Shown: piece after piece, positions 12,112 through 38,998 of the stretch
Numbering within the stretch: position 1 is the stretch's first letter
Layout: each line of letters opens with the position of its first letter
DNA from: Synechococcus sp. UW140
Lineage (GTDB): Bacteria; Cyanobacteriota; Cyanobacteriia; PCC-6307; Cyanobiaceae
Length of the DNA stretch: 50,719 bases
Assembly (NCBI GenBank): GCA_945875915.1
Contig: CAMCMT010000017.1
Location: 1 to 50,719 of the forward strand
Direction of reading: 5' to 3'
The notes under the pieces: generated by a model
The model's database searches: none
What the model was told of the DNA's origin: nothing
Seen by the model: only the letters and a program-made list of their open reading frames with translations
Made by a program: the position numbers and the translations under genes

Positions 12112-15081
12112 TTAGGCAACCTCCTGTTGGCAGTAAAGGGCGTAATAGCGGCCGCGGCCTTCCATCAGCTCATCGTGGGTGCCGGTTTCAACGATGGCAC
12201 CTTCATGCATCATCACGATCAGCTCGGCCCGGCGAATGGTGGACAGTCTGTGGGTGATGAAGAACACCGTGCAATGGTCCAGGTTGTCGAGCAGGTTGTC
12301 GCAGACCCGCCGTTCGGTGTCGTAATCAAGGGCGCTGGTGGCCTCATCGAGAATTAGTAGGCGGGGATTGCTGAGCAGGGTGCGGGCGAGGGCAAGCCGC
12401 TGGCGCTGGCCTCCGGAGAGGCCTGCTCCCCGTTCCCCTACCCCACTGCTGTAGCCACTGGGGAGTTCCATAATGAAGTCATGGGCGCAGGCCATTCGGG
12501 CCGCCTCCATGATCGCGTCGCTGCTGGCATCTGGATCGGTGAGGGCGATATTTTCCGACACCGAACCACTAAATAGCAGCGGTTCCTGGGGCACCATGCC
12601 GATCTGACGGCGCAGGGAATAGAGCTCCACCTTGTCGATGTCGTAACCGTCGATGAGGATGCGGCCACTATTGGGGGCATAGAGCCGCGGCAACATCTTG
12701 GTGAGGGTGCTCTTGCCGCTTCCGCTCTGGCCAACGACCCCGACAAAGGTGCCGGCCGGGATGATTAGGTCAATGTGCCGCAGCACCTGGGCCGCCGATG
12801 GATTGAAGGAAAAGCAGAGATCCTCAAATTTCACTTCCCCATGGATCGGGGGCAGGGGAATCTTCTGCTTGTCACTGTCGTCGGACTCTTCGGGGGTATC
12901 CACCACATCGGCGAGCCTTTCAAAGGACACCTTCAGCTCCTGGATGTTTTGCCAAATGCCGGAGAGACGCAGCAGGGGCTGGGTGACATAGCCGGAAATG
13001 ATCCGGAAGGCGATCAGCTGGCCCAGGCTCAACTCGCCATTGAGCACCATCGAGGCGCCCACCCAAAGCACCAGCAGCTGGGAGAGCTTCTGCAACACCT
13101 GGGAGGTTTCGGTGAGGGCCGTGCCCGTGATCGTTTTCTCAAAGGTGCGAGAGATATATTTGCTGTAGAAGTCTTGCCATTTCCAGCGGCTGATCATCTC
13201 CACGTTCTGGGCCTTCACCGTTTGGATGCCGGTCAGCACTTCAACGAGGTGGCTTTGGGTATTGGCATTCTCTTGGGCGGCATCCCGATATTGACGCCTA
13301 AACAGGGGCGCTCCGATGATAGTAAGGCCGATTTGGATGGGCAACACACTCAGGGCAATAGCCGTGAGCACCAAGCTATAGAACACCATCACGACGATGT
13401 AAATCACCGAGAAGGCCGTATCCAGCAAGGTGGTCAGGGCCTGGCCGGTGAGGAAGCTGCGGATCTTTTCGAGTTCGGCGATGCGGGTGCCCAGTTCCCC
13501 TACCGGCCGGCGATCGAAGTAGCTGAGCGGTAAGCGCAGCAGGTGGTCGATCACCTCTGAACCCAGCCGCAGGTCGATGCGATTGGTGGTTTCGGTAAAC
13601 AGGAAGGTGCGCAGCGCGCCGATGACGCCCTCCATCAGGGTGACAACGACTAGGGCAAAGCCGAGCACCTGCAGGGTGTCGAGGCTGCGCTGGTTGATCA
13701 CCTTATCGATGATCACCTGAATCAGCAGGGGGTTGGCCAGGCTGAACAGCTGCACCACAAACGAGGCGATCAACACCTGGGTGAGCACGCCGCGATAGCG
13801 CTTCAGGGCCGGCCAGAACCAGCTGAAGTTGAAGCGTTGTTCCTGGCTGCTGTTGCTGCGCTCCAGCAGCAGTAATTCAATCCCTTCCGGGAAGGCCTCC
13901 TCAATCTGTTGGGGGGGAAGTTCGATCCAGCCCTGCCGCGGAGAGGCCAGTAACAGGCCGCGGGCATTGGAGCTGCGCACCACGGCAAATCCCCCCTGCC
14001 AGGGGATCAGGGCTGGGGTTTGCAGCCGGGTTCCCTGGTTGGCGGGCACCTTGACGCCACTGACATGCAAGCCCATCAGGGCGGCGATATTGCCACAAAG
14101 TTGCAGGTCGGGGGTCTGGCCACGGCGCAGGGCATCGCGCAGGATCTTGTCGATCGCATCGCGACGGAAGGGCAGCTTCAGTTCGGCGGCCAGCATCTGG
14201 AAGCAAGCCAGGGTTTCCTCCAGGGGGCCAGTCCCCCGCAGCAGGGTGAAACTGGGCCGATCCCGCTGACCCAGTTCCAGGCCGGAAGCCAGGGGTGGTA
14301 GCGCCACGGCTTCGGCGTAGGTTGCAGGCTCCTCGTTGCCAGTGTTGGCGGTGGCCAGCCCAGTCGGGCCGTTGCCATCGCGGCCAGGGGGCAGGCCGGC
14401 AACCGCGTCAAATAGATCTGCGGGCAGGGCGATCAGGCGGGGCGGCAGGGGCGGCAGGCTCGTGGGCACCCCACCGGCTGGATTGAGCCGGGCGCCCAAC
14501 GGGTGGGATTCGATGTTGTGGCTGGCCACCAGCAGCAGCATCCCTGGGGGGAGCTCGGCCAGGCCGGCCTGGGTGGCTGGCACCAGGCGAGCCACCTCCC
14601 GGGCCCTGGCCAGCAGGTTGGGCAGGGAGGCCGAACCCTGGGGGTGGCGCTCCAGCTGGAGGGCAAGCAGGGCGACTAATTCGGCGCTGAACAGGTGGTC
14701 GGCGCACCAGGCGGCAAATCCCTGCTCGTTCTGAAGCAGCTCCAGCACCAGGGCATCCGGCAGCGCGATCACCTCAACCCCAAGGGAGGCGCTCACCTCT
14801 TCGCAGGGCGAGGCCCGCAGCAGGGAGGCCAGGCCCACTAGCTCACCGGGTCCCAACTTGGTGACCGTGCGCAGGCGCCCGTCGGTGCGCGCCAGGAGCC
14901 GGGCCTCACCGGACACGATGAGCAGCAACTCGCTGGGGATGAGGGCCCCGCTGCTGAGCAGCTGGCCGGGACCATAGCTGCGCTGGCTGCTGCCCTCCTG
15001 CAGGCGCCGCTGGGCGGGGGCCGAGAGGGCGACAAAGGCGGGATGGTCCCTGAGGAGGGGATGGAAGGCGGCCTGGGTCAT
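12112..15081 (-). CDS. Type I secretion ABC transporter with N-terminal cyclic-nucleotide-binding-like domain
   Basis: The 989-residue protein has four parts. Residues 10-130 look like a Crp-type cNMP-binding domain (LLLIVSGEARLLARTDG, LGPGELVGLASLL). A variable linker follows. Residues about 300-420 resemble the C39-like domain of HlyB transporters but show no catalytic Cys/His pair. Residues about 435-720 are the membrane domain. The ATPase ends the protein, with Walker A GQSGSGKST, signature LSGGQRQR, Walker B LLILDEATSALD and the H-loop FFITHRLST. It probably exports a protein substrate together with the adjacent HlyD protein. The cNMP-like domain may sense a ligand or the substrate. No substrate gene was recognised upstream. 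Confidence 0.92.
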   Translation of the reverse strand: MTQAAFHPLLRDHPAFVALSAPAQRRLQEGSSQRSYGPGQLLSSGALIPSELLLIVSGEARLLARTDGRLRTVTKLGPGELVGLASLLRASPCEEVSASLGVEVIALPDALVLELLQNEQGFAAWCADHLFSAELVALLALQLERHPQGSASLPNLLARAREVARLVPATQAGLAELPPGMLLLVASHNIESHPLGARLNPAGGVPTSLPPLPPRLIALPADLFDAVAGLPPGRDGNGPTGLATANTGNEEPATYAEAVALPPLASGLELGQRDRPSFTLLRGTGPLEETLACFQMLAAELKLPFRRDAIDKILRDALRRGQTPDLQLCGNIAALMGLHVSGVKVPANQGTRLQTPALIPWQGGFAVVRSSNARGLLLASPRQGWIELPPQQIEEAFPEGIELLLLERSNSSQEQRFNFSWFWPALKRYRGVLTQVLIASFVVQLFSLANPLLIQVIIDKVINQRSLDTLQVLGFALVVVTLMEGVIGALRTFLFTETTNRIDLRLGSEVIDHLLRLPLSYFDRRPVGELGTRIAELEKIRSFLTGQALTTLLDTAFSVIYIVVMVFYSLVLTAIALSVLPIQIGLTIIGAPLFRRQYRDAAQENANTQSHLVEVLTGIQTVKAQNVEMISRWKWQDFYSKYISRTFEKTITGTALTETSQVLQKLSQLLVLWVGASMVLNGELSLGQLIAFRIISGYVTQPLLRLSGIWQNIQELKVSFERLADVVDTPEESDDSDKQKIPLPPIHGEVKFEDLCFSFNPSAAQVLRHIDLIIPAGTFVGVVGQSGSGKSTLTKMLPRLYAPNSGRILIDGYDIDKVELYSLRRQIGMVPQEPLLFSGSVSENIALTDPDASSDAIMEAARMACAHDFIMELPSGYSSGVGERGAGLSGGQRQRLALARTLLSNPRLLILDEATSALDYDTERRVCDNLLDNLDHCTVFFITHRLSTIRRAELIVMMHEGAIVETGTHDELMEGRGRYYALYCQQEVA

Positions 15082-16227
15082 GACATGGGTAGGGGAGCTT
15101 GCGGAGTCGCCTTCAGGGCTGGAGCTGGAAGCGAATTGCGGCAGAGCCAGGGTCGGAACAGGGTGAGAGAGGGAAGTGGGGCTGGATCGACGCGCTAACT
15201 AGGGGCCATCAAGGCCCTGGCCGGGTCCTTGCGAGATTAGAGTAATGGTGAGGCAAGTTAGTCATCAGAGGGATTGAATTCCTGTGGCGGAGTGCTAAGT
15301 GAATTGTTCTTTTGAATAGCTGTCTACCACGAATTGGGTCAATAGGACTAGGGTTATGTCCGTCAACCGGACTTCAGTAAGCCTGCTGCGAGGGGTGGTG
15401 TTACACACCAGTTTACTGCAACATCAGGTCATTTTAACCAGGTGTCAGCTTGGGCCACCCTTGGTGCCACACCAGGTGGTCAGTCGGAGCATGGGGTGCT
15501 ACCCGAATCGATGGCCCCAGCAGGGCCGCTCCCCGCTCAAGGGGCGCCGAGCCCCCAGATCTCTCGGGATCACTGGGAAGATCGCAGCTTTAACGGCCGT
15601 CTGATCGGTTATCAGGACCTGGAGCTGGCCGATGGGGTGAGGCTTGATTGGCGGTAGCCGCTCGATGAGCTACCGGCTGATCAGCAAAGGGCTCCTCCTG
15701 TCGCGGCGACGCGATCGCTACGGCGGCCTGTTCTTGGCCGCGTTGGCGCCAGCGGATGGGGACCATCCTGGGTTTAACCAAACCTGCCGGGGGCAAGAGT
15801 CAAGACTTGGGCTGTCTCCGGGGGGGGGTCTATGCAGGGGCTAAGTCTGCTTGCTTGGATCCCTGCGTGATAACTTTGGCGGGGCTCTGTTTTATGCTGG
15901 CCACTGCGATGGTCTGAATTCCTGGTCCAATTCCTGCTCGAGGTGAGCCCCGTAGCTGAAATGGTTTAGCTCGTTTCAACACTTCTGGCGGTCTTGAGTC
16001 GCCGGGCCTCGATTAGTGTCTCACCAGGCGATTGCGCCCAGCGGATCTATCCCTCCTTGCCGATGATCCCTGCCGGCTGGCCCCCTTTACTTGCCGGGAG
16101 AGGCCTTTCGTTGCCAGATCAACAAGCCCCACGGTCTGGTGATCTTCGCCCAGGTGGAGCGCTTCGTCGCCCAGGTTCTGGTGCGACAGGTTTAGGTACC
16201 CCCCTATCGGGCAGCTCGGCCGCAGCT
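15082..16227. other. About 1.1 kb without a recognisable gene, upstream of the secretion operon
   Basis: Only short, poorly coding-like open frames are present. Two stretches look like decayed protein-coding DNA on the plus strand: one ending in a TAG near 16195, reading KPHGLVIFAQVERF close to its end, and one near 15870-15950 reading DNFGGALFYAGHCDG. Neither has a convincing start codon. The 71-codon frame 15442-15657 has an unremarkable composition. The region must hold the promoter of the secretion operon, but I could not pick a clear -35/-10 pair. It looks like a degraded segment. Confidence 0.5.
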
Positions 16228-16914
16228 TCAGGGGCTGGGGGGTTTGTGCCAGAGGCCCAGCCATTCGTTTTCCCGCGGTTGCTGTTGACGGCCCGTGGCC
16301 CCGTTAGGGACCGCTTGCCAGAGCGCCTGGATAAAGCCCGCTTCGGCCAGCGCGCCGGCGAGCTCGCCGGGATCACTGCCGTAGGGAGGGCCGGCGGGAC
16401 GGCCATGGCACCAGAACAGCCCCAGCAACCAGCCCCCCGGGACCAGCAGTTCCGCCACGATTCGTAGATAGGCCGGCCGTTGCTGGGGCTCGATCGCGCA
16501 GTAGCAGGTGTGCTCTACCACCCCCTGGAGGCTGGCGGCACCCAGACCCGCGGCGGCCAGGGCCTGGCCATCAAATAGGTTCGCCTGCAGCCAAACTAGG
16601 TTCGCGCCCGGGGGGGCGGCCAACTGGCGGGCGGCGGCGATCGCCTCAGCGCTGAAATCCAAGCCCACCACCGCAAACCCCAGCTGGGCCAGCAACCGCG
16701 CCTCGTGGCCCCGGCCGCAGCCGGGCACGAGCACCCGGCCGGGCGGTTGGGGTGCCAGGGGATGGCAGCTGAAGAACTCCTGCAGGGGCGGAGCCGGCTG
16801 GCCCAGTTCCCAGCCGTCGCGGCCCTCCAGGTACCGCTGATCCCAAAACAGGGCTGAGGCCGGCGTCGCCCCGGCGTCCTCGTGCAGCACCTTGGGCTCA
16901 GGATCGGGCACCAT
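16228..16914 (-). CDS. TPMT-like SAM-dependent methyltransferase
   Basis: The 228-residue protein matches the thiopurine S-methyltransferase family: FWDQRYLEGRDGWELGQPAP at the N-terminus is the family signature, VLVPGCGRGHEARLLA is the SAM-binding loop I, and VVGLDFSAEAI is motif II. Bacterial members methylate small thiol-, halide-, selenium- or tellurium-type substrates; the substrate here is unknown. The ATG at 16914 is only 25 bases from the divergent start of the next gene, so its promoter must lie within that gene. The end carries ENEWLGLWHKP. Family assignment is firm, substrate is not. Confidence 0.88.
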   Translation of the reverse strand: MVPDPEPKVLHEDAGATPASALFWDQRYLEGRDGWELGQPAPPLQEFFSCHPLAPQPPGRVLVPGCGRGHEARLLAQLGFAVVGLDFSAEAIAAARQLAAPPGANLVWLQANLFDGQALAAAGLGAASLQGVVEHTCYCAIEPQQRPAYLRIVAELLVPGGWLLGLFWCHGRPAGPPYGSDPGELAGALAEAGFIQALWQAVPNGATGRQQQPRENEWLGLWHKPPSP

Positions 16915-16939
16915 AACGTTCGCCCCTTCGCCCTTCACC

Positions 16940-17164
16940 ATGACAGGCAACCTGACTGCGATTGGCTTCATTGCTAGTTGGGTGCTGGCCTGGGGCATCG
17001 GCGGCTCCCTGATAGATGCCGGCTTGATCGAAGCCGGGGTCTATTCGCTCGAAACCGGCCAGACGGGCACCCTGGCTACCTTCGGCGGCTGGACGATCCT
17101 CTGGGCCGGCTTCGGTGTGTGGCTCTACGGCCGTGCCACCCGCCCGGCCCCCCCAAAGGTTTGA
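16940..17164 (+). CDS. Small two-helix membrane protein, conserved-hypothetical type
   Basis: The 74-residue product has two hydrophobic segments (about residues 5-26 and 42-60) joined by a short Gly/Glu-rich loop, and a basic-proline tail. No family is recognised with certainty. The ATG at 16940 is preferred over an upstream ATG at 16892 because that one would overlap the divergent methyltransferase and adds residues unlike a membrane-protein start. With 25 bases between the two divergent starts, a promoter in front of this gene must overlap the neighbour's coding sequence. Confidence 0.6.
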   Translation: MTGNLTAIGFIASWVLAWGIGGSLIDAGLIEAGVYSLETGQTGTLATFGGWTILWAGFGVWLYGRATRPAPPKV

Positions 17165-17257
17165 GCTGCTGATCCACCGTGGTGTTAGGGCCAGCTTGAT
17201 TTCCTTGACAGGGATATTTTTGGGCCTGAGCGGTTGTTGATCTTCCCTTAGCTGCTT

Positions 17258-18409
17258 TTGGCAAAACGTCATTCCATTCAACGCTTGCTTCCCCAGACCG
17301 CCGGGATCACCGCTGGGTTGGTTGGTTGCCTGCTGCTGCTGCAATCCGGTCCGGCCCAACCCCCTCTAGCGGCCCCAGGGCCCGCCGGCTCCCCCCCAGG
17401 CCCGGCGGCCGGGGTCAGCGCGCTTGAGCCTCACGACCAGTCCCCAGGCGGCCGCATCCTGGATCTGGCCCCCCGCCAGCAATGGAACGCCAATTTCGGC
17501 TACTGCGGCGAGAGCTCCTTCATCGTGGCGGGCCTGTCTTTCGGCCAGTACCTGTCCCAATACGAGGCTCGGGCGGTGGCCTCAGCTTCGGCCAGTCAGA
17601 GCGCTGAGGGCAGCCAGCTACTGCTGGGTGTCAACGACGGAGCCTTCGCGGCCCGCAGCCACTTAGAGGTCAGCCGCTGGTCTGGCGGCACCGTCGCCGA
17701 GTTCCTGGCCTGGATCCGGGGCCATGTCCTCCAGAGCCACCCGGTGATCATCGGGCTCTACGCCAACCAACGGCGCTTTTATGGCCGGCGCGATCCCCAG
17801 GCCGGTTCCCCGGAGTACGACCACATCGTGTCGGTTCTAGGCGTGCTGCCTGGGGCCCAAACCCGCGCTGCCGCTGGCCCTGGCGGGCCCGATTGGGAGC
17901 TGCTGTTCAGCGACCACGGCCTCCTCGATGCGGACCTGGCGGGCAACAGCACCTACCGCTTCCAGGTGCCCTTCAGCAGCTTTGCCCGAACGCGCTCCCA
18001 GGCCAACCAGGAGCAGGCCCCCTTTTATTCGTTGCCTGAGGGCACGCCTGCCTACGGCGTCGCCGTGCTGGGCGTGAAGGATCGGAGCCGGGACACCCTG
18101 CCGGTGCACATAAGCCCCAGCAGCAGCTCCGAAATCCCTGAAATCGCCAACGGCTCCAGCCTGCGGCCGGCCGGCCGCCCCCTGGAGCTGACGATCACCG
18201 TGACCGGCCTGCGGCCCGCTCAGCCCTACCGCCTCTATCGCTACGACTCCCTGGTGGCGATCCCGGAGGGCAATTTCAATGCCCATGCCGATGCTGCCGC
18301 CAGGCAATGGAGCCTCTCGATCCCCAGCGGCACCAGCATCAGCCTCACGGACACGATCCGATCCGATGCCGTGGCGGCCTACCGGGCCGTGCCGCTTTCG
18401 GCCCCCTGA
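17258..18409 (+). CDS. Exported protein with a C39/papain-like cysteine-protease core
   Basis: The 383-residue product starts at a TTG (17258); no ATG precedes the hydrophobic signal segment (about residues 12-33, rich in Leu). The core begins with NANFGYCGESSFIVAGLSFG, in which YCGE looks like the catalytic-cysteine helix of C39/papain-like folds, and continues with SPEYDHIVSVLGV, a likely catalytic His, and LLFSDHG. The C-terminal third resembles a beta-sandwich (LELTITVTGLRPAQPYRLYRYD). It is probably secreted to the periplasm or outside. It may be a peptidase, transglutaminase-like enzyme or inactive relative; none is proven. It ends 75 bases before a convergent gene. Confidence 0.65.
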   Translation: MAKRHSIQRLLPQTAGITAGLVGCLLLLQSGPAQPPLAAPGPAGSPPGPAAGVSALEPHDQSPGGRILDLAPRQQWNANFGYCGESSFIVAGLSFGQYLSQYEARAVASASASQSAEGSQLLLGVNDGAFAARSHLEVSRWSGGTVAEFLAWIRGHVLQSHPVIIGLYANQRRFYGRRDPQAGSPEYDHIVSVLGVLPGAQTRAAAGPGGPDWELLFSDHGLLDADLAGNSTYRFQVPFSSFARTRSQANQEQAPFYSLPEGTPAYGVAVLGVKDRSRDTLPVHISPSSSSEIPEIANGSSLRPAGRPLELTITVTGLRPAQPYRLYRYDSLVAIPEGNFNAHADAAARQWSLSIPSGTSISLTDTIRSDAVAAYRAVPLSAP

Positions 18410-29358: not shown

Positions 29359-31929
29359 ATGTTCGAGCGGTTTACCGAGAAAGCCATCAAGGTGATCATG
29401 CTGGCCCAGGAGGAGGCCCGCCGCCTTGGCCACAACTTCGTCGGCACCGAGCAGATCTTGCTGGGCTTGATCGGCGAGGGCACCGGGGTGGCAGCCAAGG
29501 TGCTGAAGTCGATGGGGGTCAACCTCAAGGACGCCCGGGTCGAGGTCGAAAAGATCATCGGCCGCGGCTCCGGCTTTGTGGCCGTGGAGATCCCCTTCAC
29601 GCCCCGGGCCAAGCGGGTCTTGGAGCTGTCCCTCGAAGAAGCGCGCCAACTCGGCCACAACTACATCGGTACCGAACACCTACTGCTAGGCCTGATCCGC
29701 GAGGGTGAAGGCGTGGCCGCCCGGGTGCTGGAAAACCTCGGCGTCGACCTGGCCAAGGTGCGCACCCAGGTGATCCGCATGCTGGGCGAAACGGCCGAGG
29801 TGGCCTCCGGTGGCGGCAGCAAGGGCTCTACAAAAACCCCAACGCTGGATGAATTCGGCACCAACCTCACCCAGCTGGCCGCAGAAGGCAAGCTCGATCC
29901 GGTGGTGGGTCGCCAGAATGAAATTGAACGGGTCATCCAGATCCTTGGCCGTCGCACTAAGAACAACCCGGTGCTCATTGGTGAGCCTGGGGTGGGTAAA
30001 ACGGCCCTTGCTGAAGGCCTGGCCCAGCGCATTACCCAGGGTGAAATTCCGGACATTCTCGAAGATAAGCGCGTTCTCACCCTTGATGTCGGCCTGCTGG
30101 TGGCCGGCACCAAATATCGGGGTGAGTTTGAGGAGCGCCTCAAAAAAATCATGGAGGAGATCCGCAGCGCCGGCAATGTGATCCTCGTGATTGATGAGGT
30201 TCACACCTTGATTGGCGCTGGAGCGGCCGAAGGCGCCATTGATGCTGCCAATATTCTGAAGCCGGCCCTAGCCCGGGGCGAGCTGCAATGCATCGGCGCC
30301 ACTACTCTTGATGAATACCGCAAGCACATCGAACGGGATGCGGCCCTAGAGCGGCGCTTCCAGCCGGTGATGGTGGGCGAGCCTTCCGTGGCCGACACGA
30401 TTGAAATCCTGCGGGGCCTGCGGGAGCGCTATGAACAACATCACCGCCTCAAGATCAGCGACGAAGCTGTTGTGGCAGCAGCCACCCTCGGAGATCGCTA
30501 CATTTCCGATCGCTTCCTACCCGATAAGGCCATCGACCTGATCGATGAGGCTGGCAGCCGCGTCCGCCTGCTCAATTCCAAGCTGCCGGTGGCTGCTAAG
30601 GAAGTGGATAAGCAGCTGCGCGATGTGCAGAAGCGCAAGGAAGCTGCAGTGCGCGAGCAGGACTTTGGCAAGGCCGGCGAACTGCGCGATAAGGAAGTGG
30701 AATTGCGCGAGCAGATCCGTACGATCCTCCAGTCCCGCCGCGACGAGGAGCCCAACACGGCCAGCGATTCTGGTGAGGGCGCAGCTGAGGCAGAGTCGGC
30801 CCCAGCCGGGGCTTTCTCCGAGGGCCAATCGGTCTATGACGCCAGCGGTGAGCGCACCCCCGTGGTCACCGAGGAGGACATTGCCCAGATCGTCGCGTCC
30901 TGGACCGGGGTGCCCGTGCAAAAACTCACCGAGAGCGAATCGGTGAAGTTGCTGAACATGGAGGAAACCCTCCACCAGCGCCTGATCGGCCAGGACGAGG
31001 CTGTTAAGGCCGTGTCCAAGGCGATCCGCCGGGCCCGGGTTGGTCTCAAAAATCCCAACCGCCCGATTGCCAGCTTTATCTTCTCCGGCCCCACCGGCGT
31101 CGGCAAAACCGAGCTCACCAAAGCGCTGGCCGCCTACTTCTTCGGCAGCGAAGAGTCGATGATCCGTCTCGACATGTCGGAATACATGGAGCGCCACACG
31201 GTCAGCAAGCTTATCGGTTCGCCCCCGGGCTATGTGGGCTTCAATGAAGGCGGCCAGCTCACCGAGGCTGTACGCCGGCGGCCCTACACCGTGATTCTGT
31301 TCGATGAAATCGAAAAGGCCCACCCTGATGTCTTCAACCTGCTGCTGCAGCTGCTCGAAGATGGTCGCCTCACCGATTCCAAAGGCCGCACGGTGGACTT
31401 CAAGAACACCATGATCATCATGACCTCGAACATCGGTTCGAAGGTGATTGAGAAGGGCGGCGGCGGCCTCGGTTTTGAGTTCTCCGGCAGCAGTGTCGAA
31501 GACACCCAGTACACGCGAATCCGTTCGCTGGTGAACGAGGAGCTGAAGCAATACTTCCGCCCCGAATTCCTCAACAGGCTTGATGAGATCATCGTGTTCC
31601 GCCAACTCAGCCGCGACGAAGTGAAGCTGATCGCCGAGATCATGCTTCGCGAAGTCTTTGTCCGCATGCAAGACAAGGGCATCACCCTGTCGGTTTCGGA
31701 ATCCTTCAAGGAGCGGCTAGTCGAAGAGGGCTACAACCCCAGCTACGGTGCCCGGCCCCTGCGCCGCGCCGTGATGCGCCTGCTCGAAGATTCCCTGGCC
31801 GAGGAATTCCTCTCCGGTCGTATCAGCGACGGCGACTCAGCCCTCGTTGACGTGGATGACAGTAAGCAGGTGGTGATCCGTAAGGATGTCGTTGCTCCTC
31901 AGCCGGAGCTTGCGGCCGCTGGGGTTTAG
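29359..31929 (+). CDS. clpC: Clp protease ATP-binding chaperone ClpC
   Basis: The 856-residue AAA+ unfoldase hands proteins to ClpP. It has an N-terminal repeat domain ([19 protein letters not shown]), AAA1 with Walker A GEPGVGKT near residue 208, a UVR motif ([19 protein letters not shown], about residue 435), and AAA2 with Walker A GPTGVGKT near residue 577. It is the cyanobacterial/plastid ClpC type, known to serve in phycobilisome breakdown with NblA. The product is full length. A strong terminator follows about 100 bases downstream. The 217 bases upstream hold no gene and no convincing sigma-70 pair was seen. Confidence 0.98.
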
Positions 31930-32342: not shown

Positions 32343-32798
32343 TCAGAACTTAAACCGGAAGCCACCCCCATAGCCAACCTGATTCCCGGTGGAAAAGGCC
32401 TCAACATTCACGTTGGCATAGAGGGCGGTGGATGGGCTCAAGGACAAATCAGCACCAGCGGCAATAGAGAAGCCATTCACCCCGCGGTTTTGCCCCTGGT
32501 TGAGGAAGGAGCCAGAACCAGAAGCGGGCATGGAGGCCGAGGGGGAACTGTTGCCAGTTTCACCGACGAGGGTGACGAGGACATCCACCTGATAGGCCAG
32601 GGCAAGCCTGGGAATCAGGCTGATGGATTTGGTCTTGTTGAGGGGGATGGGGCCTGAGGTGCGCTCGATGCCGATGGTGCCAATGGGGGTCGTCTCCTTG
32701 GATTGCCCTATTGGGGACCCTGCCAGGTTGGCGTCCTGAGGTCTGAGCTGATCAATTAGAAGGCTTCGACCTCTCCAGGATCCCTGCCTTGAATGCAC
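32343..32798 (-). CDS. Hypothetical protein with a beta-barrel-like C-terminus, possibly an outer-membrane-protein fragment
   Basis: The 151-codon frame has no convincing start and overlaps the upstream gene's 3' end by 43 bases. Its last 100 residues alternate like outer-membrane beta strands (ISLIPRLALAYQVDVLV, FSIAAGADLSLSPSTALYANVNVEAF) and end GGGFRFKF, with the terminal Phe typical of BAM substrates. I read it as the last few strands of a barrel, either a small protein or the remains of a longer one. It carries one N-glycosylation sequon (NSS). Confidence 0.5.
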   Translation of the reverse strand: MHSRQGSWRGRSLLIDQLRPQDANLAGSPIGQSKETTPIGTIGIERTSGPIPLNKTKSISLIPRLALAYQVDVLVTLVGETGNSSPSASMPASGSGSFLNQGQNRGVNGFSIAAGADLSLSPSTALYANVNVEAFSTGNQVGYGGGFRFKF

Positions 32799-33268
32799 AG
32801 GCGTCTGAATTGGCCCACCACCCCATCGCCGTAGCCCGCCCGCACGCTTTGCCAGGCCTTGCCATCGCCTTTGGCGTCATAGGTTTGATCAGTGCAGTCG
32901 TATTGGACTTGTAGGAGTTTGGTGGTGCTGCGGCTAGGAATCACCCTGGGGGGGATGGTGGTGCAGGTGGTGTAGGTCGAGCTTGTCTGATTATATTTGG
33001 CATTGCCGTTCCAGTTGTTATTCCAGTTGTTGCGGTTGTTTTGGCGCCGGCCGCCGTTGTCGTAGTTGTCGGTGACGCAGGTTGTTTTGCCCTCGATCAC
33101 CCGCTCGGGCGTCACGAAGGTGAAGGGCAGTTCTCCCCAAACGTAGAGATGGCCAGGAATCTCCGCCTTGGCTGGGCCTAGGGCTAGCAACAGCCAGGTT
33201 CCGCTCGTGACTAGGGCCGAAAGCCTTGGCAGCCGAACTGGCATGGGTTGGGAGTGGTATCTTTTCAT
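32756..33268 (-). CDS. Exported Asn-rich protein of unknown function
   Basis: The product of 170 residues has a signal peptide (about residues 9-34, SALVTSGTWLLLALGPAKA before EIPGHL). The mature part includes a tract very rich in Asn and Arg (NNRNNWNNNWNGNAKYNQTS) with an NQT sequon, cysteines at CVTD, TCTT, DCTD and LCIQ, and Tyr/Thr-rich strands. Start choice between ATG 33268 and ATG 33244 is open; neither has a clear ribosome-binding site. No family recognised. It sits about 1 kb from the divergently oriented glycosyltransferase gene, which is on the other strand. Confidence 0.65.
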   Translation of the reverse strand: MKRYHSQPMPVRLPRLSALVTSGTWLLLALGPAKAEIPGHLYVWGELPFTFVTPERVIEGKTTCVTDNYDNGGRRQNNRNNWNNNWNGNAKYNQTSSTYTTCTTIPPRVIPSRSTTKLLQVQYDCTDQTYDAKGDGKAWQSVRAGYGDGVVGQFRRLCIQGRDPGEVEAF

Positions 33269-33513
33269 CCCAATTATGATGGCATTCGGATTGACTTCGG
33301 TGCCTCGGCCTTCTTTAGGGGCGCTTAACACCGAGCCCGTACTTGCTGCCGGGAGCTGGCTTGCAATGGATGCGTTTGCGGTGCTTGGTTGGGTGCTCTC
33401 TCGTTGTCCCCATCGCCATCAAGAGAGCACCTACGAAGTCCTAATAGAAGACTTCTTTTGATCTTAGTATTCTACTCGCTATTGGACGTAATTGCGGAGT
33501 TCTTCGATACCAA

Positions 33514-34058
33514 TTGCCCCTTCCCTTTTCCAATCAATGCTGGCCATTTATGCTGTTGCTGTTTGCACAAGGTGCTTTGGATTCGCGGTATTGGGCCTCG
33601 CCAGCGCCGGCTTGGGCAAGTCGGCGTCCTTGGCCAGGGCTCCACCTGCTCAGTGTTGCTTTGGTGGCTGCAGGTTTGCGGTTGGTCCTGGTCGACCTGG
33701 CTATCGCCGCTGTTCCCCCCAGCCGGGTCGGCACCTGTTCCGAGTCGTTGGTGCTCTCCAAGCGTTTTCGCATGGTGCCCAGCCCCGGTGATCAGGACTA
33801 CCAACGCACCACCGACCCCTTCGGCAAAGAGGTGATTATCAGTCTCACTAATGGCTTGCGTCTTTTTCTGGTGAGGGTGATGATTACATCCTCTCAAGTG
33901 CTTTTGCGACCGGCCATCGGGTGCGGGCTTGTTTGCAGTCTTTACCTCAGAACTGCCCCCCGGGTGATGACCGGGGCAAGCGCTATCGCCTTGTGGATCT
34001 GCAAACGGGGGCTCGAGCTGAGGGGTTGGACTCCTGGCACCTCTGCGGTGGCGCCTAG
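33514..34058 (+). pseudogene. Exported cysteine-containing protein with a frameshift in a T-run
   Basis: The frame from 33514 runs through a hydrophobic segment, then GTCSESLVLSKRFRMVPSP and TTDPFGKEVIISLTNGLR, and loses sense near 33,864. From the T5 run at 33,862-33,866 a second frame continues in protein-like fashion: SGEGDDYILSSAFATGHRV, then ACLQSLPQNCPPGDDRGKR, and ends with SWHLCGGA and TAG at 34058. Adding one T would join both. The combined protein would have four cysteines and an N-terminal membrane/signal segment. Either an assembly error, a true mutation or frameshifting could explain it. The start is uncertain. Confidence 0.62.
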
Positions 34059-34207
34059 GCAGTTGCCACCCAAGTGTTTTATCCAGGCTGCTCCTGGTTG
34101 GTAAGCAGCCCCCTCCCCCCTGGATGTTTGGGTCCGTGCTCAGCAGGGCTAATCTAACGCAAGTGAGTTGTTTTGTTCAATCCGGAAGTCTAATGCCAGT
34201 CAATACG

Positions 34208-34236
34208 TTGACGGGGCAATGCTTCTACAGTATGAT
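34208..34236 (+). promoter_or_regulatory. Near-consensus sigma-70 promoter for the HMW1C-like gene
   Basis: TTGACG (34208-34213), a 17-base spacer and TATGAT (34231-34236). The expected transcription start, about 7 bases later, falls at or next to the proposed GTG start codon (34244), which would make the mRNA leaderless or nearly so. Confidence 0.75.
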
Positions 34237-34243
34237 CACATGA

Positions 34244-36088
34244 GTGGACTATAGCGCGTTGAAGTCGAATCTAGAAGCCTTTGAATTAACGGTCTATCGC
34301 CGTGAGCCGGAGCAGGCCGCCAAGCAGCTGCAGGCGATCCTGGCCACCTTGGATTCTGTCGCAGGCATGATTGATGAGCGCATCCATCCCCAGTCTCCCG
34401 ACAATTCTTCGCTCGATTCCTATCTCGACCATGTGATTCATCGCCTAGCGGCAGCAATCACTTCGTTGTTTTCCGATCCCGGCTTCCAGCTCAGTGCCCA
34501 AGGTTTTAGCGAATTGATGCGCTGGCAGCGCTGGATTTCAGCGATATTTGGCGCCAGTGATTTTCACTCCACCGACCATATTCTGGAAACCTTCAACCTA
34601 CCCCAAGCCAGCGACTCCCCCGAATACACCCTGAACCTCGAAGACCTGCCCAAATTCGCCTTCCTCTACTCCCCTGAATCCCAGATTCCCCTCAATATTG
34701 ATTTGCTCTGGCAGCATTACCCGGAGATGGCCGTGTCCCTGGCGATGGTGCTGCTGTCACCACGTTTTCTAGGTACCAATTCTGCCCACCATAAGCGCAA
34801 TCAACTCCTCCCCTGGCTCACCGATAAACTCAACCAGTTGTCCCGTTTGGAGGCAATTCCTACCCAAACGTTGCATGACGTTTATATGCATTGTAGCTAT
34901 GCCACTATCGACAATCGCCATGCCATCAAGGGCTCGATCAATCGCTTAGTGCGGCAATGGATTGTGGAGCAAGGCCTGGAGGATTTGCCGGTCCAGCCCT
35001 TGCCCGTTGCTACGACCGCTGGCAAGCCGGTCGCCCTGGTGGTGTTGGAATGGTTTGGCAGCAACCATTCGATTTATCGCACCCATTCCAAAACGATTGA
35101 GGCGATGCGAGCCGATTTTTATGTGATTGGCCTGGGCTATGGCAAGTGTGTGGACCACTACGTGCGCAACGTTTTTGATCAGTTTGTTGAAGTTACCGAA
35201 GTGGAGATGGCTCAACAGTTGCAGCAGGTGCGTCAGCTCTGTGAAGAGAACAACGTTGCAGTGATTTATATGGTGAGCATTGGCATGAGCCCACTCAACA
35301 TCTTCCTTTCCAATCTCAGGCTGTCGCCCCTGCAGGCCACCAGCTGGGGCCATCCCGCCACCAGCAATTCTCCCTTTATCGACTATTACATCGCCGAGCG
35401 CGATCTCGTGCCCGACCCAAGCCTGTTCTCCGAGCAGCTCCTTTGGCTGGAGTCCGATGAAATGCCTTTTCGCATCACCGAAACGATGGCCAATGCCATG
35501 GCCCAGCGCCAGGCCATCCCCGGCAAGGGCGTGTTGCAGATCGCTATCTGTGCCTCAACGATGAAGCTCAACCCTGCTTTCCTGACCTCATTAGTACGAA
35601 TCGTTCAGGCGGCTGAGGTGCCGGTGCATTTTCACTTTTTAGTGGCCGGTTGCATTGGCATTGTGTATCGGCAGATCAGTAAAGCCGTCGCTAGTTATCT
35701 GCCGGGTATTAGCAGCGTCTATCCCCAGCTGGGCTTTGATGTCTACATGCAAGTGATTGCCAATTGTGATCTAGCCCTCAACCCCTATCCATTTGGTAAT
35801 TGCAATGGCATTGTCGATGTCTTGCTTAATGGCGTTGTTGGCGTGTGCATGCAGGGTCCCCACCTGTTTGAATCGATTGACCAGGCCCTCTACCGGCGCC
35901 TTGGCCTGCCGGATTGGTTGATTGCAACCGACGAGGAGAGCTATATCCAGGCGGCCCTGCGCCTGATCCGCGACGAGGACTTGCGTCACCAGTTAGCAGC
36001 CCAGTTCGGCACCATCGACAGCGTCCAGGCCCTCCATCAAGGCCAAGACTCCCAGCTGTCGGCCCAATTGTTGGCAAAAATCAGCTGA
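34244..36088 (+). CDS. HMW1C-like protein N-glycosyltransferase (GT41-type)
   Basis: The 614-residue protein has an N-terminal all-helical region (about residues 1-260) and a C-terminal GT-B glycosyltransferase. The latter shows the HMW1C hallmarks ATSWGHPATSNSPFIDYY, a nucleotide-sugar-binding part DLALNPYPFGNCNGIVDVLL and GPHLFESIDQALYRRLGLPD. In Haemophilus and Actinobacillus such enzymes add glucose or galactose to Asn in NxS/T sequons of adhesins in the cytoplasm before export. The GTG at 34244 is the first start in frame; an ATG four bases earlier (34240) opens a four-codon frame only. Base composition is visibly lower in GC than the neighbours. No adhesin gene is adjacent; nearby exported proteins carry sequons. 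Confidence 0.9.
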   Translation: MDYSALKSNLEAFELTVYRREPEQAAKQLQAILATLDSVAGMIDERIHPQSPDNSSLDSYLDHVIHRLAAAITSLFSDPGFQLSAQGFSELMRWQRWISAIFGASDFHSTDHILETFNLPQASDSPEYTLNLEDLPKFAFLYSPESQIPLNIDLLWQHYPEMAVSLAMVLLSPRFLGTNSAHHKRNQLLPWLTDKLNQLSRLEAIPTQTLHDVYMHCSYATIDNRHAIKGSINRLVRQWIVEQGLEDLPVQPLPVATTAGKPVALVVLEWFGSNHSIYRTHSKTIEAMRADFYVIGLGYGKCVDHYVRNVFDQFVEVTEVEMAQQLQQVRQLCEENNVAVIYMVSIGMSPLNIFLSNLRLSPLQATSWGHPATSNSPFIDYYIAERDLVPDPSLFSEQLLWLESDEMPFRITETMANAMAQRQAIPGKGVLQIAICASTMKLNPAFLTSLVRIVQAAEVPVHFHFLVAGCIGIVYRQISKAVASYLPGISSVYPQLGFDVYMQVIANCDLALNPYPFGNCNGIVDVLLNGVVGVCMQGPHLFESIDQALYRRLGLPDWLIATDEESYIQAALRLIRDEDLRHQLAAQFGTIDSVQALHQGQDSQLSAQLLAKIS

Positions 36089-36465
36089 GGACCCCACCGT
36101 TCTGTATGCGGTGTCATTTGGTTCGGGTTTCTTTGGCTTCTCAAACGGTTCGCCCCGTTTTGGCTCCGTCCATGGCCGCAGGCATGCCCTAACAGTTGCC
36201 CTGGTTCTGGGGATCTTTGAACCTGTCCTTGCTTTCCCGCTCTTTGGGCCGGTCCCAACAGGCATGGCTGCGGCTCCCCCAAGGCTGTTAGCGGGCACCC
36301 ACTCCGGGCTCGAAAGGCTGGCCAGTCCTCGGTTTTCCCCTGTCAGGGACTGGCCGCTCAGCGCCTTAGACTGGCTTTCAGATCGGCTCTTGCAGGCCTG
36401 TCCCCCTTGGGACTTGGCTGGGGCAAGGGTTGCTACCACCTCAAACCCCAGGCGGAGACACCACT
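36089..36465. other. Spacer between the glycosyltransferase gene and pdhC
   Basis: No recognisable gene. A short imperfect terminator-like hairpin (AAACGG, six-base loop, CCGTTTT) lies at 36,143-36,161. The remainder must hold the pdhC promoter and leader, but no clear -35/-10 pair was found. Confidence 0.5.
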
Positions 36466-37809
36466 TTGGCGACCCACGAGATCTTCATGCCCGCCCTCAG
36501 TTCCACGATGACGGAGGGCAAGATCGTGGAGTGGCTCAAAAAACCTGGCGACCGGGTCGGCCGGGGGGAGTCGGTGTTGGTGGTGGAGTCCGATAAGGCC
36601 GATATGGATGTGGAGTCGTTTAACGAGGGCTTCCTGGCGGTGGTGTTGATGCCGGCGGGTGGCACGGCGCCGGTGGGCGAAACGATTGGCTTGATTGTGG
36701 AAACGGAGACGGAAATCGCTGGCGTTCAGGCCCAAGCCCCCGCCGCCCCCGCTGCCCCCGCCGCCGCTGCGCTGCCAACTCTGGCTGCGACCCCCGTTGC
36801 CGTTGCCGCGGCGCCCGTTGCTCCCGCTGCCGTGGTGGCCCCCACTCCAGTGGCTGTTCCGGTGCCGGTTTCGCCTGTTGCTCCAGCCGACGGCAGGGTG
36901 ATGGCCTCGCCTAGGGCCAAAAAGCTCGCTTCCCAGTTGGGCGTTGCCCTCGGTTCCCTGCGCGGCAGCGGTCCCCATGGGCGTATCCAGGGCGAAGACG
37001 TGCTGGCCGCCGCCGGCCAATCCGCCGGCATCCCCCGCGTGGCCGAGGGCACGGGCCCTGCCGTGGCCCCAGCCTCCGGTAACGGCAAAGGTGTCCCCGC
37101 GGCGCCGGCTGCGGTGGGCCAAACCTTCGGCCAGCCCGGCGACACCACCACCTTCAACACCCTGCAGCAGGCGGTGAACCGCAACATGCTGGCCAGCCTG
37201 GAGGTGCCCTGTTTCCACGTGGGCTACACCATCACCACCGACAAACTCGATGCTTTTTATAAGCAGGTGAAGCCCAAAGGGGTCACGATGACGGCCCTGC
37301 TCGCCAAGGCGGTGGCTGTGGTGTTGGCCCGCCATCCCCAAGTGAATGCGGCGACAAGCCCCGCCGGCATGGCCTATCCGCTTGCAGTGAATGTGGCGGT
37401 GGCTGTGGCCATGGACGACGGCGGCCTGATCACCCCCGTGCTGGCCAACGCGGACAAAACCGATTTGTATTCCCTCTCCCGTAACTGGGCCGATTTAGTC
37501 GCCCGCTCCCGTACTAAACAACTCAAGCCCGAGGAATACAGCACCGGCACCTTCACCCTTTCCAACCTGGGCATGTTTGGCGTGGATCGTTTTGATGCGA
37601 TCCTGCCGCCCGGCACGGGCGCGATCTTGGCGGTGGCGGCCTCCCGTCCCACGGTGGTGGCGGGCAAGGACGGTTCGATTTCCGTGAAGCCCCAGATGCA
37701 GGTGAACCTCACCTGTGATCACCGCGTGATCTATGGGGCCCATGGGGCGGCGTTCCTTAAGGATTTAGCCCAGTTAATTGAAACCAATCCGGAGAGCCTG
37801 GCGATCTGA
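36466..37809 (+). CDS. pdhC: Dihydrolipoyl acetyltransferase (pyruvate dehydrogenase E2)
   Basis: E2 transfers the acetyl group from lipoamide to CoA in the pyruvate dehydrogenase complex. The 447-residue product has a lipoyl domain with MPALSSTMTEGKIVEW and the lipoyl-lysine ESDKADMDVESF, an Ala/Pro/Val-rich linker, an E1/E3-binding domain (ASPRAKKLASQLGV) and the catalytic domain ending in CDHRVIYGAHGAAFLKDL. DHRVIYG, in place of the usual DHRxxDG, is typical of cyanobacterial and plastid E2. I chose a TTG at 36466 because it follows a GGAG at good spacing and begins LATHEIFMPAL; the ATG at 36430 adds 12 residues without family likeness. Confidence 0.95.
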   Translation: MATHEIFMPALSSTMTEGKIVEWLKKPGDRVGRGESVLVVESDKADMDVESFNEGFLAVVLMPAGGTAPVGETIGLIVETETEIAGVQAQAPAAPAAPAAAALPTLAATPVAVAAAPVAPAAVVAPTPVAVPVPVSPVAPADGRVMASPRAKKLASQLGVALGSLRGSGPHGRIQGEDVLAAAGQSAGIPRVAEGTGPAVAPASGNGKGVPAAPAAVGQTFGQPGDTTTFNTLQQAVNRNMLASLEVPCFHVGYTITTDKLDAFYKQVKPKGVTMTALLAKAVAVVLARHPQVNAATSPAGMAYPLAVNVAVAVAMDDGGLITPVLANADKTDLYSLSRNWADLVARSRTKQLKPEEYSTGTFTLSNLGMFGVDRFDAILPPGTGAILAVAASRPTVVAGKDGSISVKPQMQVNLTCDHRVIYGAHGAAFLKDLAQLIETNPESLAI

Positions 37810-37858: not shown

Positions 37859-38998
37859 ATGGAACTAGAAATAATCCGATTGGCACTGATGGTCCTTAAG
37901 TTCAAGTTTGTTCGCAGGCTGGGCCTGTCGGTTGGCCTTGGTGCCTTGGGAGGCTTGGTGCTTTTCGGCGCTGCCCCGGCTCCGTGTTCCGCGCGGGACT
38001 TTGGCGGCGGCGGTTTTCGCGGTGGCGGTGGTGGCGGCATTAGTGAGCGCAGTTTTTCTGGTGGGGGATTTGCGCCCCGCAGTTTTGGCGGAGGTGGGGG
38101 CGGTAGCTACCGCTTCAGCGGCGGCGGCTCCGTTGCCAGGGCGCCGGAACGGGTGGCTGAGCCCCGATTGAGCGCTCCTGGGGCGTCCTATCGCGCCCCC
38201 GCCCTGGTCGCTCCCAGGGAGGCCCGGCTAGCTCAGGGCTATGGCGGTTCCCATCCCTTCTATGGCGCTGGATCGCGCACCCCTTGGACGGGCCACAACA
38301 TTTCGTCGGAGCAGTTCCGTTCCGGCCGCTATCCCGGAGGCCCTAATGATGCCTTTGGCCGTGGAGGTTGGGGCCGCCAGGGCTGGCAAGGGCGCGGCTT
38401 TAACGAGGCCAACTACAACCAGAACAATTTCTACAACCGCAACCTCGAGGGTTGGAATTCCCAGTGGAATAACGGTGGCTACTGGGGCAACCGGCCCTGG
38501 GGCTACGGCTGGTACAACTGGTCGCCCAATAGCTGGGGCTGGTGGGGCGGCAACTCCGCCGGCTGGGATCTGGCGGCCCTGGCTACCGGCGCTGTGATTT
38601 CGGATCTAGTTGACCAGGCTGCAAACCAGCAATCGCCCTTGATTGCGGTGCCTGATAGCAATTACCAGCTCAACTACGGCTCGGTCGATGGGGTAGGCAC
38701 CAGCGGTGCCAATTTCAGCTATGCCGTGGCCAACACCCCTACCCCGATCAAGGGAGAGGCCAACTGCCAGGAGGGCCTGCTTGATGGCCAGATTCCCTCC
38801 ACCGCCTCCCAGGCCCAGCTCCTGAATGCCGCCTGCCAGGTGGCCTACGGCCCCGATCCCAAGGGCAGCGCCCAGCCGGAGCCATCGGCCCTTTGGCCCC
38901 CATCCCCGGCCGTCAGCCATGGGCTCACCCTGTTGCTGGGTCTGGGTTTGGGGGTGGGCGGCTTTGCCCTGCTGAACCGCCGCAAAGCCCAGGGTTAA
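37859..38998 (+). CDS. Exported Gly/Asn/Trp-rich protein with C-terminal membrane anchor, paralogue of the protein at 18.5-19.4 kb
   Basis: The 379-residue product (ATG 37859; ATG 37889 also possible) has a signal peptide ending near PCSARDF, a glycine-rich stretch with repeats of GGGG, an Asn/Tyr/Trp-rich middle (WNNGGYWGNRPWGYGWYNW) and a C-terminal domain with AVPDSNYQLNYGSVDG and AQLLNAACQVAYG that matches the protein encoded at 18,485-19,354. Unlike that protein it ends in a hydrophobic segment (SHGLTLLLGLGLGVGGFALL) and NRRKAQG, which resembles a membrane anchor or sorting signal. Function unknown; envelope localisation is inferred. Three N-glycosylation sequons are present (NIS, NWS, NFS). 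Confidence 0.75.
   Translation: MELEIIRLALMVLKFKFVRRLGLSVGLGALGGLVLFGAAPAPCSARDFGGGGFRGGGGGGISERSFSGGGFAPRSFGGGGGGSYRFSGGGSVARAPERVAEPRLSAPGASYRAPALVAPREARLAQGYGGSHPFYGAGSRTPWTGHNISSEQFRSGRYPGGPNDAFGRGGWGRQGWQGRGFNEANYNQNNFYNRNLEGWNSQWNNGGYWGNRPWGYGWYNWSPNSWGWWGGNSAGWDLAALATGAVISDLVDQAANQQSPLIAVPDSNYQLNYGSVDGVGTSGANFSYAVANTPTPIKGEANCQEGLLDGQIPSTASQAQLLNAACQVAYGPDPKGSAQPEPSALWPPSPAVSHGLTLLLGLGLGVGGFALLNRRKAQG

Follow-up and report, generated by a model that had tools for sequence, protein, structure and literature searches.

An HMW1C-like N-glycosyltransferase in picocyanobacteria and its probable substrate, a giant sequon-rich autotransporter

Glycosylation of adhesins by HMW1C-like N-glycosyltransferases (NGTs) is known from proteobacteria. 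In the HMW1A/B/C loci and the NGT-TPS loci of Yersinia, Herbaspirillum and Pseudomonas, the partner of the NGT is a large secreted adhesin of the TPS type, rich in sequons and used together with TpsB. The orphan NGTs of Kingella kingae, Aggregatibacter aphrophilus and A. pleuropneumoniae have no adhesin gene next to them, their target autotransporters being encoded at a distance; the targets in Kingella and A. aphrophilus are trimeric autotransporters, and the A. aphrophilus enzyme modifies one encoded elsewhere (PMC5303269). Classical autotransporters such as Ag43, AIDA-I and TibA are also glycosylated in the cytoplasm prior to export, but by BAHT heptosyltransferases, an unrelated enzyme family that attaches O-linked heptose to Ser/Thr and uses no sequon. 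We found no published report of an NGT in cyanobacteria in the open-licence literature searched.

The gene described here lies in a 50,719-nucleotide stretch of Synechococcus sp. UW140 DNA (the window) at positions 34244..36088 of the plus strand. Its frame is open from a GTG at 34244 (with a TTG at 34259 as an alternative start) to the stop codon at 36086-36088 and encodes 614 amino acids. The original prediction of an HMW1C-like protein at this place holds, although not from position 34208, because an in-frame stop (34241-34243) precedes the true start, GTG 34244; both HMW1C signatures that it named (GHPATSNSPFIDYY and GPHLFESIDQALYRRL) are present in the protein. The two HMW1 N-terminal domains were recognized by Pfam (HMW1C_N, 8.6e-22; HMw1_D2, 3.4e-26), and the NCBIfam NGTferase profile matched over the full length (profile residues 2-609 of 614, 2.2e-177), with a score of 591 bits that misses the 1000-bit cut-off by which the equivalog is named but which does not define the wider family. 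A PDB search returned matches at 1e-138 to 1e-140, the only close solved relatives being AaNGT (41% identity across 596 aligned residues) and ApNGT. The Pfam, NCBIfam and PDB E-values exclude a chance match.

An AlphaFold (AF2) model built from an input alignment of 26 NGTs (mean pLDDT 89.7) superimposed on AaNGT (8p0q) with a TM-score of 0.94 and an rmsd of 1.9, compared with TM-scores of 0.5-0.58 for the next-best GT41 structures, those of O-GlcNAc transferase (OGT) and SPINDLY (SPY). The predicted protein resembles HMW1C, ApNGT and AaNGT in length, in its all-alpha N-terminal domain followed by a GT-B fold, in the Arg/Asp dyad and Lys441, and in overall sequence (~40% identity). In AaNGT, Arg177, His214 and Asp215 read the Ser/Thr at position +2 of the sequon, and the R177A and D215A variants are inactive (PMC10507012); the corresponding residues of the window protein, R174, H211 and D212, are invariant across 72 other NGTs. 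The UDP-sugar site is also kept (His276, Ser277, Arg280, Gly369, His370, Lys440, Tyr500, Asn520, Gly521 and Asp524 in AaNGT numbering). Among the substitutions (T437S, Q468G, H494Q, S495L and T519C in the same numbering), T437S and S495L (S438 and L496 of the window protein) are common in other NGTs; the remainder place G469, Q495 and C520 where AaNGT has Q468, H494 and T519. At the Gln468-equivalent position of ApNGT, a change to Ala raises activity (PMC10507012), whereas the K441A variant of ApNGT has no activity (PMC5303269), and this lysine is present in the window protein. Given the kept sequon-reading and UDP-sugar residues and K441, the enzyme is likely to be catalytically active. Its assignment as an HMW1C-type NGT is borne out by the domains, the full-length profile match, the fold and the sequon-reading residues, and in both sequence and structure comparisons it groups with NGTs, apart from the OGT/SPY-like GT41 enzymes.

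A search for homologues and their neighbours in 400 sampled genomes of the picocyanobacterial family found full-length NGTs in just four: this genome (G000), two genomes of the same genus (G001 and G003, 83-85% identity) and Cyanobium sp. C1_MAG_00004 (G074, 79%), the last with a divergent adhesin neighbour. A fifth genome (G004) has only the last 61 NGT residues, at a contig edge. In a sample of 388 genomes across the class, matches at 1e-40 came from G000 and G074 only. Next in similarity are betaproteobacterial proteins (43-45% identity). Unlike HMW1C, ApNGT and AaNGT, the four picocyanobacterial NGTs group in a well-supported cyanobacterial clade of their own (SH-aLRT 99) that falls outside the proteobacterial groups; its stem is long and the tree backbone partly unresolved, so that a transfer donor cannot be named. 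Two other picocyanobacteria, G265 and G368, encode distant NGT-like proteins (31% and 25% identity; L065 3257-5266, minus strand, and L066 2890-4758, plus strand) that lack the sequon-reading Arg/His/Asp and possibly have a different GT41 activity. Another NGT, from a 'Cytophagales' MAG (L081 10001-11836), nests in Comamonadaceae and has neighbours resembling those of locus L143; this contig is probably mis-binned.

In the window, the NGT gene lies between genes for a clpC-type ATPase (29359..31929, plus strand; Pfam/NCBIfam; 98% identical in the relative G002) and the pyruvate dehydrogenase E2 component, pdhC E2 (36475..37809, plus strand; Pfam; syntenic in G002 and G004). The G004 fragment also adjoins pdhC E2; the G001 and G003 genes lie in a hydrogenase-gene neighbourhood (neighbours identified by eye), and the G074 gene adjoins that of the adhesin. 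G002 is continuous and syntenic on either side of the NGT locus, with ~0.4 kb in place of the 2.86-kb accessory segment that carries the NGT (33322..36177, no strand assigned; by blastn against G002 contig C97, window 33321 = 8432 and window 36178 = 8026). As judged from these alignments, the NGT is an accessory gene that occupies a variable spot, in three chromosomal contexts. Its GC content is lower than that of its surroundings, as first noted (0.543 versus 0.644 for the window), and in G074 the gene has 48.6% GC compared with 63.6% for the sequence after it. GC alone is no proof of transfer, because similarly low values (0.53-0.59) recur in two other stretches of the window, 10.5-13.5 kb and 47-48.5 kb. 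Nevertheless, taken with the patchy distribution, the empty site in G002 and the several contexts, the gene does look acquired, in line with the original prediction.

A candidate partner is encoded in G074: the gene divergently adjacent to that of the NGT specifies an autotransporter of 1948 aa that contains 69 sequons and, according to the genome search, a PF03797 barrel (2.0e-37). This adhesin is a single chain with a signal-peptide-like stretch (by eye); a profile scan matched its PATR repeats, the barrel being unlisted by that scan for so long a protein. The counterpart in this genome comes in two pieces, each at a contig edge: C44 (2437 aa, 105 sequons, 16 PATR stretches at 7.8e-91 and eight T5SS/PEP-CTERM repeats) and C26 (1089 aa, with a C-terminal barrel at 2.5e-28). 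Since both contig ends carry the same repeat type, albeit with no exact overlap, C44 and C26 are likely to be parts of a single gene encoding 3,500 aa or more. With its C-terminal PF03797 barrel and PATR-repeat passenger, the candidate is classed as a classical (type Va) autotransporter, unlike both the two-partner HMW1A/B/C-type adhesins and the trimeric targets in Kingella and A. aphrophilus. In G000, G001 and G003, the N-terminal part of the adhesin gene occupies a similar locus, where its divergent neighbour is a conserved regulator-like gene of 246 aa; unlike in G074, it is unlinked to the NGT. In these three genomes, the others with a full-length NGT, the sequon-rich repeat region is 64-80% identical over long stretches; elsewhere in the 400 family genomes its matches were weaker and repeat-generic only. 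NGT-lacking Cyanobium genomes encode the C-terminal half of the adhesin at 55-64% identity without the sequon-rich repeat region, and a search of G004, which is fragmented and 90% complete, found no adhesin. The predicted structure of a 450-aa adhesin stretch was all-beta but unusable (mean pLDDT 55). An in-frame TAG separates the N-terminal extension of the G000 adhesin gene from its signal-peptide-like stretch (L233 7312-7878); a TTG is available after it, and the frame is open at this site in G001 and G003. The G001 frame ends at the contig end, by a transposase-like fragment (L235 9264-9752, minus strand; ISXO2-like by eye).

The original prediction cited the adhesin gene adjacent to such enzymes in Pasteurellaceae; unlike in the HMW locus, no intact adhesin lies beside the NGT gene of the window. 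Neither a TPS adhesin nor TpsB was found among the neighbours, which are clpC, a 191-aa ORF and pdhC E2, so the locus is not of the HMW type; nor was an alpha6GlcT gene (agt) recognized among them. What is present is a remnant of an autotransporter beta-barrel, its last 113 aa (32346..32690, minus strand; ORF 32343-32798; PF03797 residues 192-255), which shares 48% identity with the G074 adhesin and 81% with the C-terminus of C26, the genome's own large autotransporter. It has the same side and strand relative to the NGT as the adhesin in G074, and its copy in G002 is broken by a stop. The remnant fits the loss of an adjacent adhesin copy, although it could be unrelated to the NGT.

Sequon densities per 100 aa in the repeat regions of the four adhesins are 4.61 (G074), 4.82 (G000), 4.38 (G001) and 4.85 (G003), values that represent a single evolutionary contrast with dependent counts because these proteins are orthologues with duplicated repeats. 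By comparison, 34 picocyanobacterial autotransporter passengers, mostly from NGT-lacking genomes, had a median of 1.21 and a maximum of 2.99, and controls of similar Asn content (9.5%) had 2.0-2.2. The value is 0.94 for a second G074 autotransporter, and the C-terminal passenger and barrel that the adhesins have in common with NGT-lacking relatives show no sequon enrichment. NxT outnumbers NxS in the adhesin repeats (139 : 84) compared with 157 : 155 in the 34 passengers; part of this bias is inherent to the repeats, as NGT-lacking homologues partly exceed the shuffle expectation. A shuffle-based excess was too weak to serve as the sole argument for the same reason, and we relied instead on sequon density relative to homologous controls. 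TIGR04393 repeats were of no use as a control set, with just one other cyanobacterium in 242 genomes having them. GNWT, the motif at the core of the model peptide for AaNGT, was counted 11 times in the adhesins (six in G000, four in G001 and one in G074) and was absent from 10 control proteins; the adhesins also concentrate NLT, GNGT and GGN[VI]S. A contrast between GNNTYTG and GANTYTG at the PATR turn is suggestive only.

Other NGT loci served as calibration. A large Asn-rich neighbour, with a median of 3.56 sequons per 100 aa, was found at 31 of 77 of them, and at the N-termini of such neighbours a TPS domain was seen in 23 of 27 and a YadA stalk in one of 27. A Chlorobiaceae NGT (L107 9977-11842, plus strand; also L110) is accompanied by a 1292-aa classical autotransporter (13531-17406, minus strand) with a PF03797 barrel, which has 32 sequons in its first 1000 residues and two in the last 290; a 511-aa gene there is methyltransferase-like by eye. 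Its passenger has no sequence relation to the cyanobacterial one. From the Chlorobiaceae and picocyanobacterial loci, NGTs appear to be paired with classical autotransporters in two phototrophic phyla. As a tentative generalization, NGTs of phototrophs outside the Proteobacteria may have become paired on at least two occasions, in Cyanobacteriota and in Chlorobiota, with classical autotransporters that are unrelated to each other and evolved sequon-dense repeats, a glyco-adhesin module distinct from the proteobacterial ones with TPS adhesins and trimeric autotransporters. The adhesin beside the NGT of Sapientia aquatica (L122 1-9867, plus strand) is 3289 aa long with 404 sequons, or 12.3 per 100 aa, and an Asn content of 17.8%, which places it far above all other NGT neighbours. 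A 2688-aa 'fusion' in L079 was discarded as a shadow frame over the adjacent adhesin.

Based on these comparisons, we consider it probable that the window gene encodes a functional cytoplasmic NGT whose main substrate is the giant type Va autotransporter encoded on C44 and C26. The enzyme would attach single hexose units, most likely glucose donated by UDP-glucose, to the Asn of N-x-S/T sequons in the repeats of the autotransporter while it is in the cytoplasm; the glycosylated protein would then be exported by Sec, and the C-terminal barrel would display its passenger at the cell surface, where it may act in adhesion or aggregation. Such an action is known in kind, because orphan NGTs modify autotransporters encoded elsewhere. 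The novelty lies in the phylum, in a partner that is a repeat autotransporter, and in the contrast to homologues from genomes that lack the NGT.

The enzyme might instead be active as an N-glucosyltransferase of general use in the cytoplasm, serving other or many substrates, the giant autotransporter being incidental or one target among them. According to a review (PMC8151025), NGTs can also act on proteins that have no relation to type V secretion, and the NGT and adhesin genes are unlinked in three of the four genomes. We regard this alternative as unlikely in view of sequon loading that is confined to a repeat region whose close relatives were seen only in genomes with an NGT, the divergent adjacency of the two genes in G074 and the barrel remnant at the window locus.

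It is still less likely that the window gene encodes a decaying or neofunctionalized GT41 enzyme that has lost Asn glycosylation. Some donor-site residues do differ, the profile score falls under the equivalog cut-off and the adjacent barrel is a remnant, but the reading frame has been kept open at 79-85% identity across two genera, the sequon-reading dyad and K441 are invariant, S438 and L496 recur in other NGTs, and the truly divergent proteins of L065 and L066 are the ones that lose the dyad.

Finally, the original prediction pointed to exported proteins nearby as candidate substrates, namely an Asn-rich, small exported-looking protein of 191 aa (32759..33331, minus strand) and a Gly-rich exported protein of 379 aa from a widespread paralogous family (37859..38998, plus strand), both of which we judge to be outside the system. 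They lie within 2 kb of the NGT gene, look exported and contain NQT, NIS, NWS and NFS, and the NQT, NSS, NWS and NFS sequons noted originally do exist in the nearby ORFs, but three such ORFs, the barrel remnant included, have two, one and three sequons against shuffle expectations of 1.6, 1.9 and 2.4. The 191-aa gene, which flanks the NGT, is 84-88% identical in G005 and G002, genomes in which no NGT was found (less certainly so in G005, whose contig ends near the NGT place); relatives of the 379-aa protein occur in 14 of 20 genomes searched, mostly without an NGT, and there is no full gene at the matching place in G002 and G004. With sequons at chance level and both proteins present in genomes without a detected NGT, their role as its substrates is highly improbable.

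If the giant autotransporter is indeed the main substrate, some freshwater (lake) picocyanobacteria would bear a hyper-glucosylated surface protein of several thousand residues, with possible consequences for aggregation, grazing or phage resistance. The enzyme and the adhesin would then form a natural enzyme-substrate pair. Comparing its sequon-dense repeats with close autotransporters that lack the enzyme would offer a direct route to how glycosylation shapes adhesin evolution.
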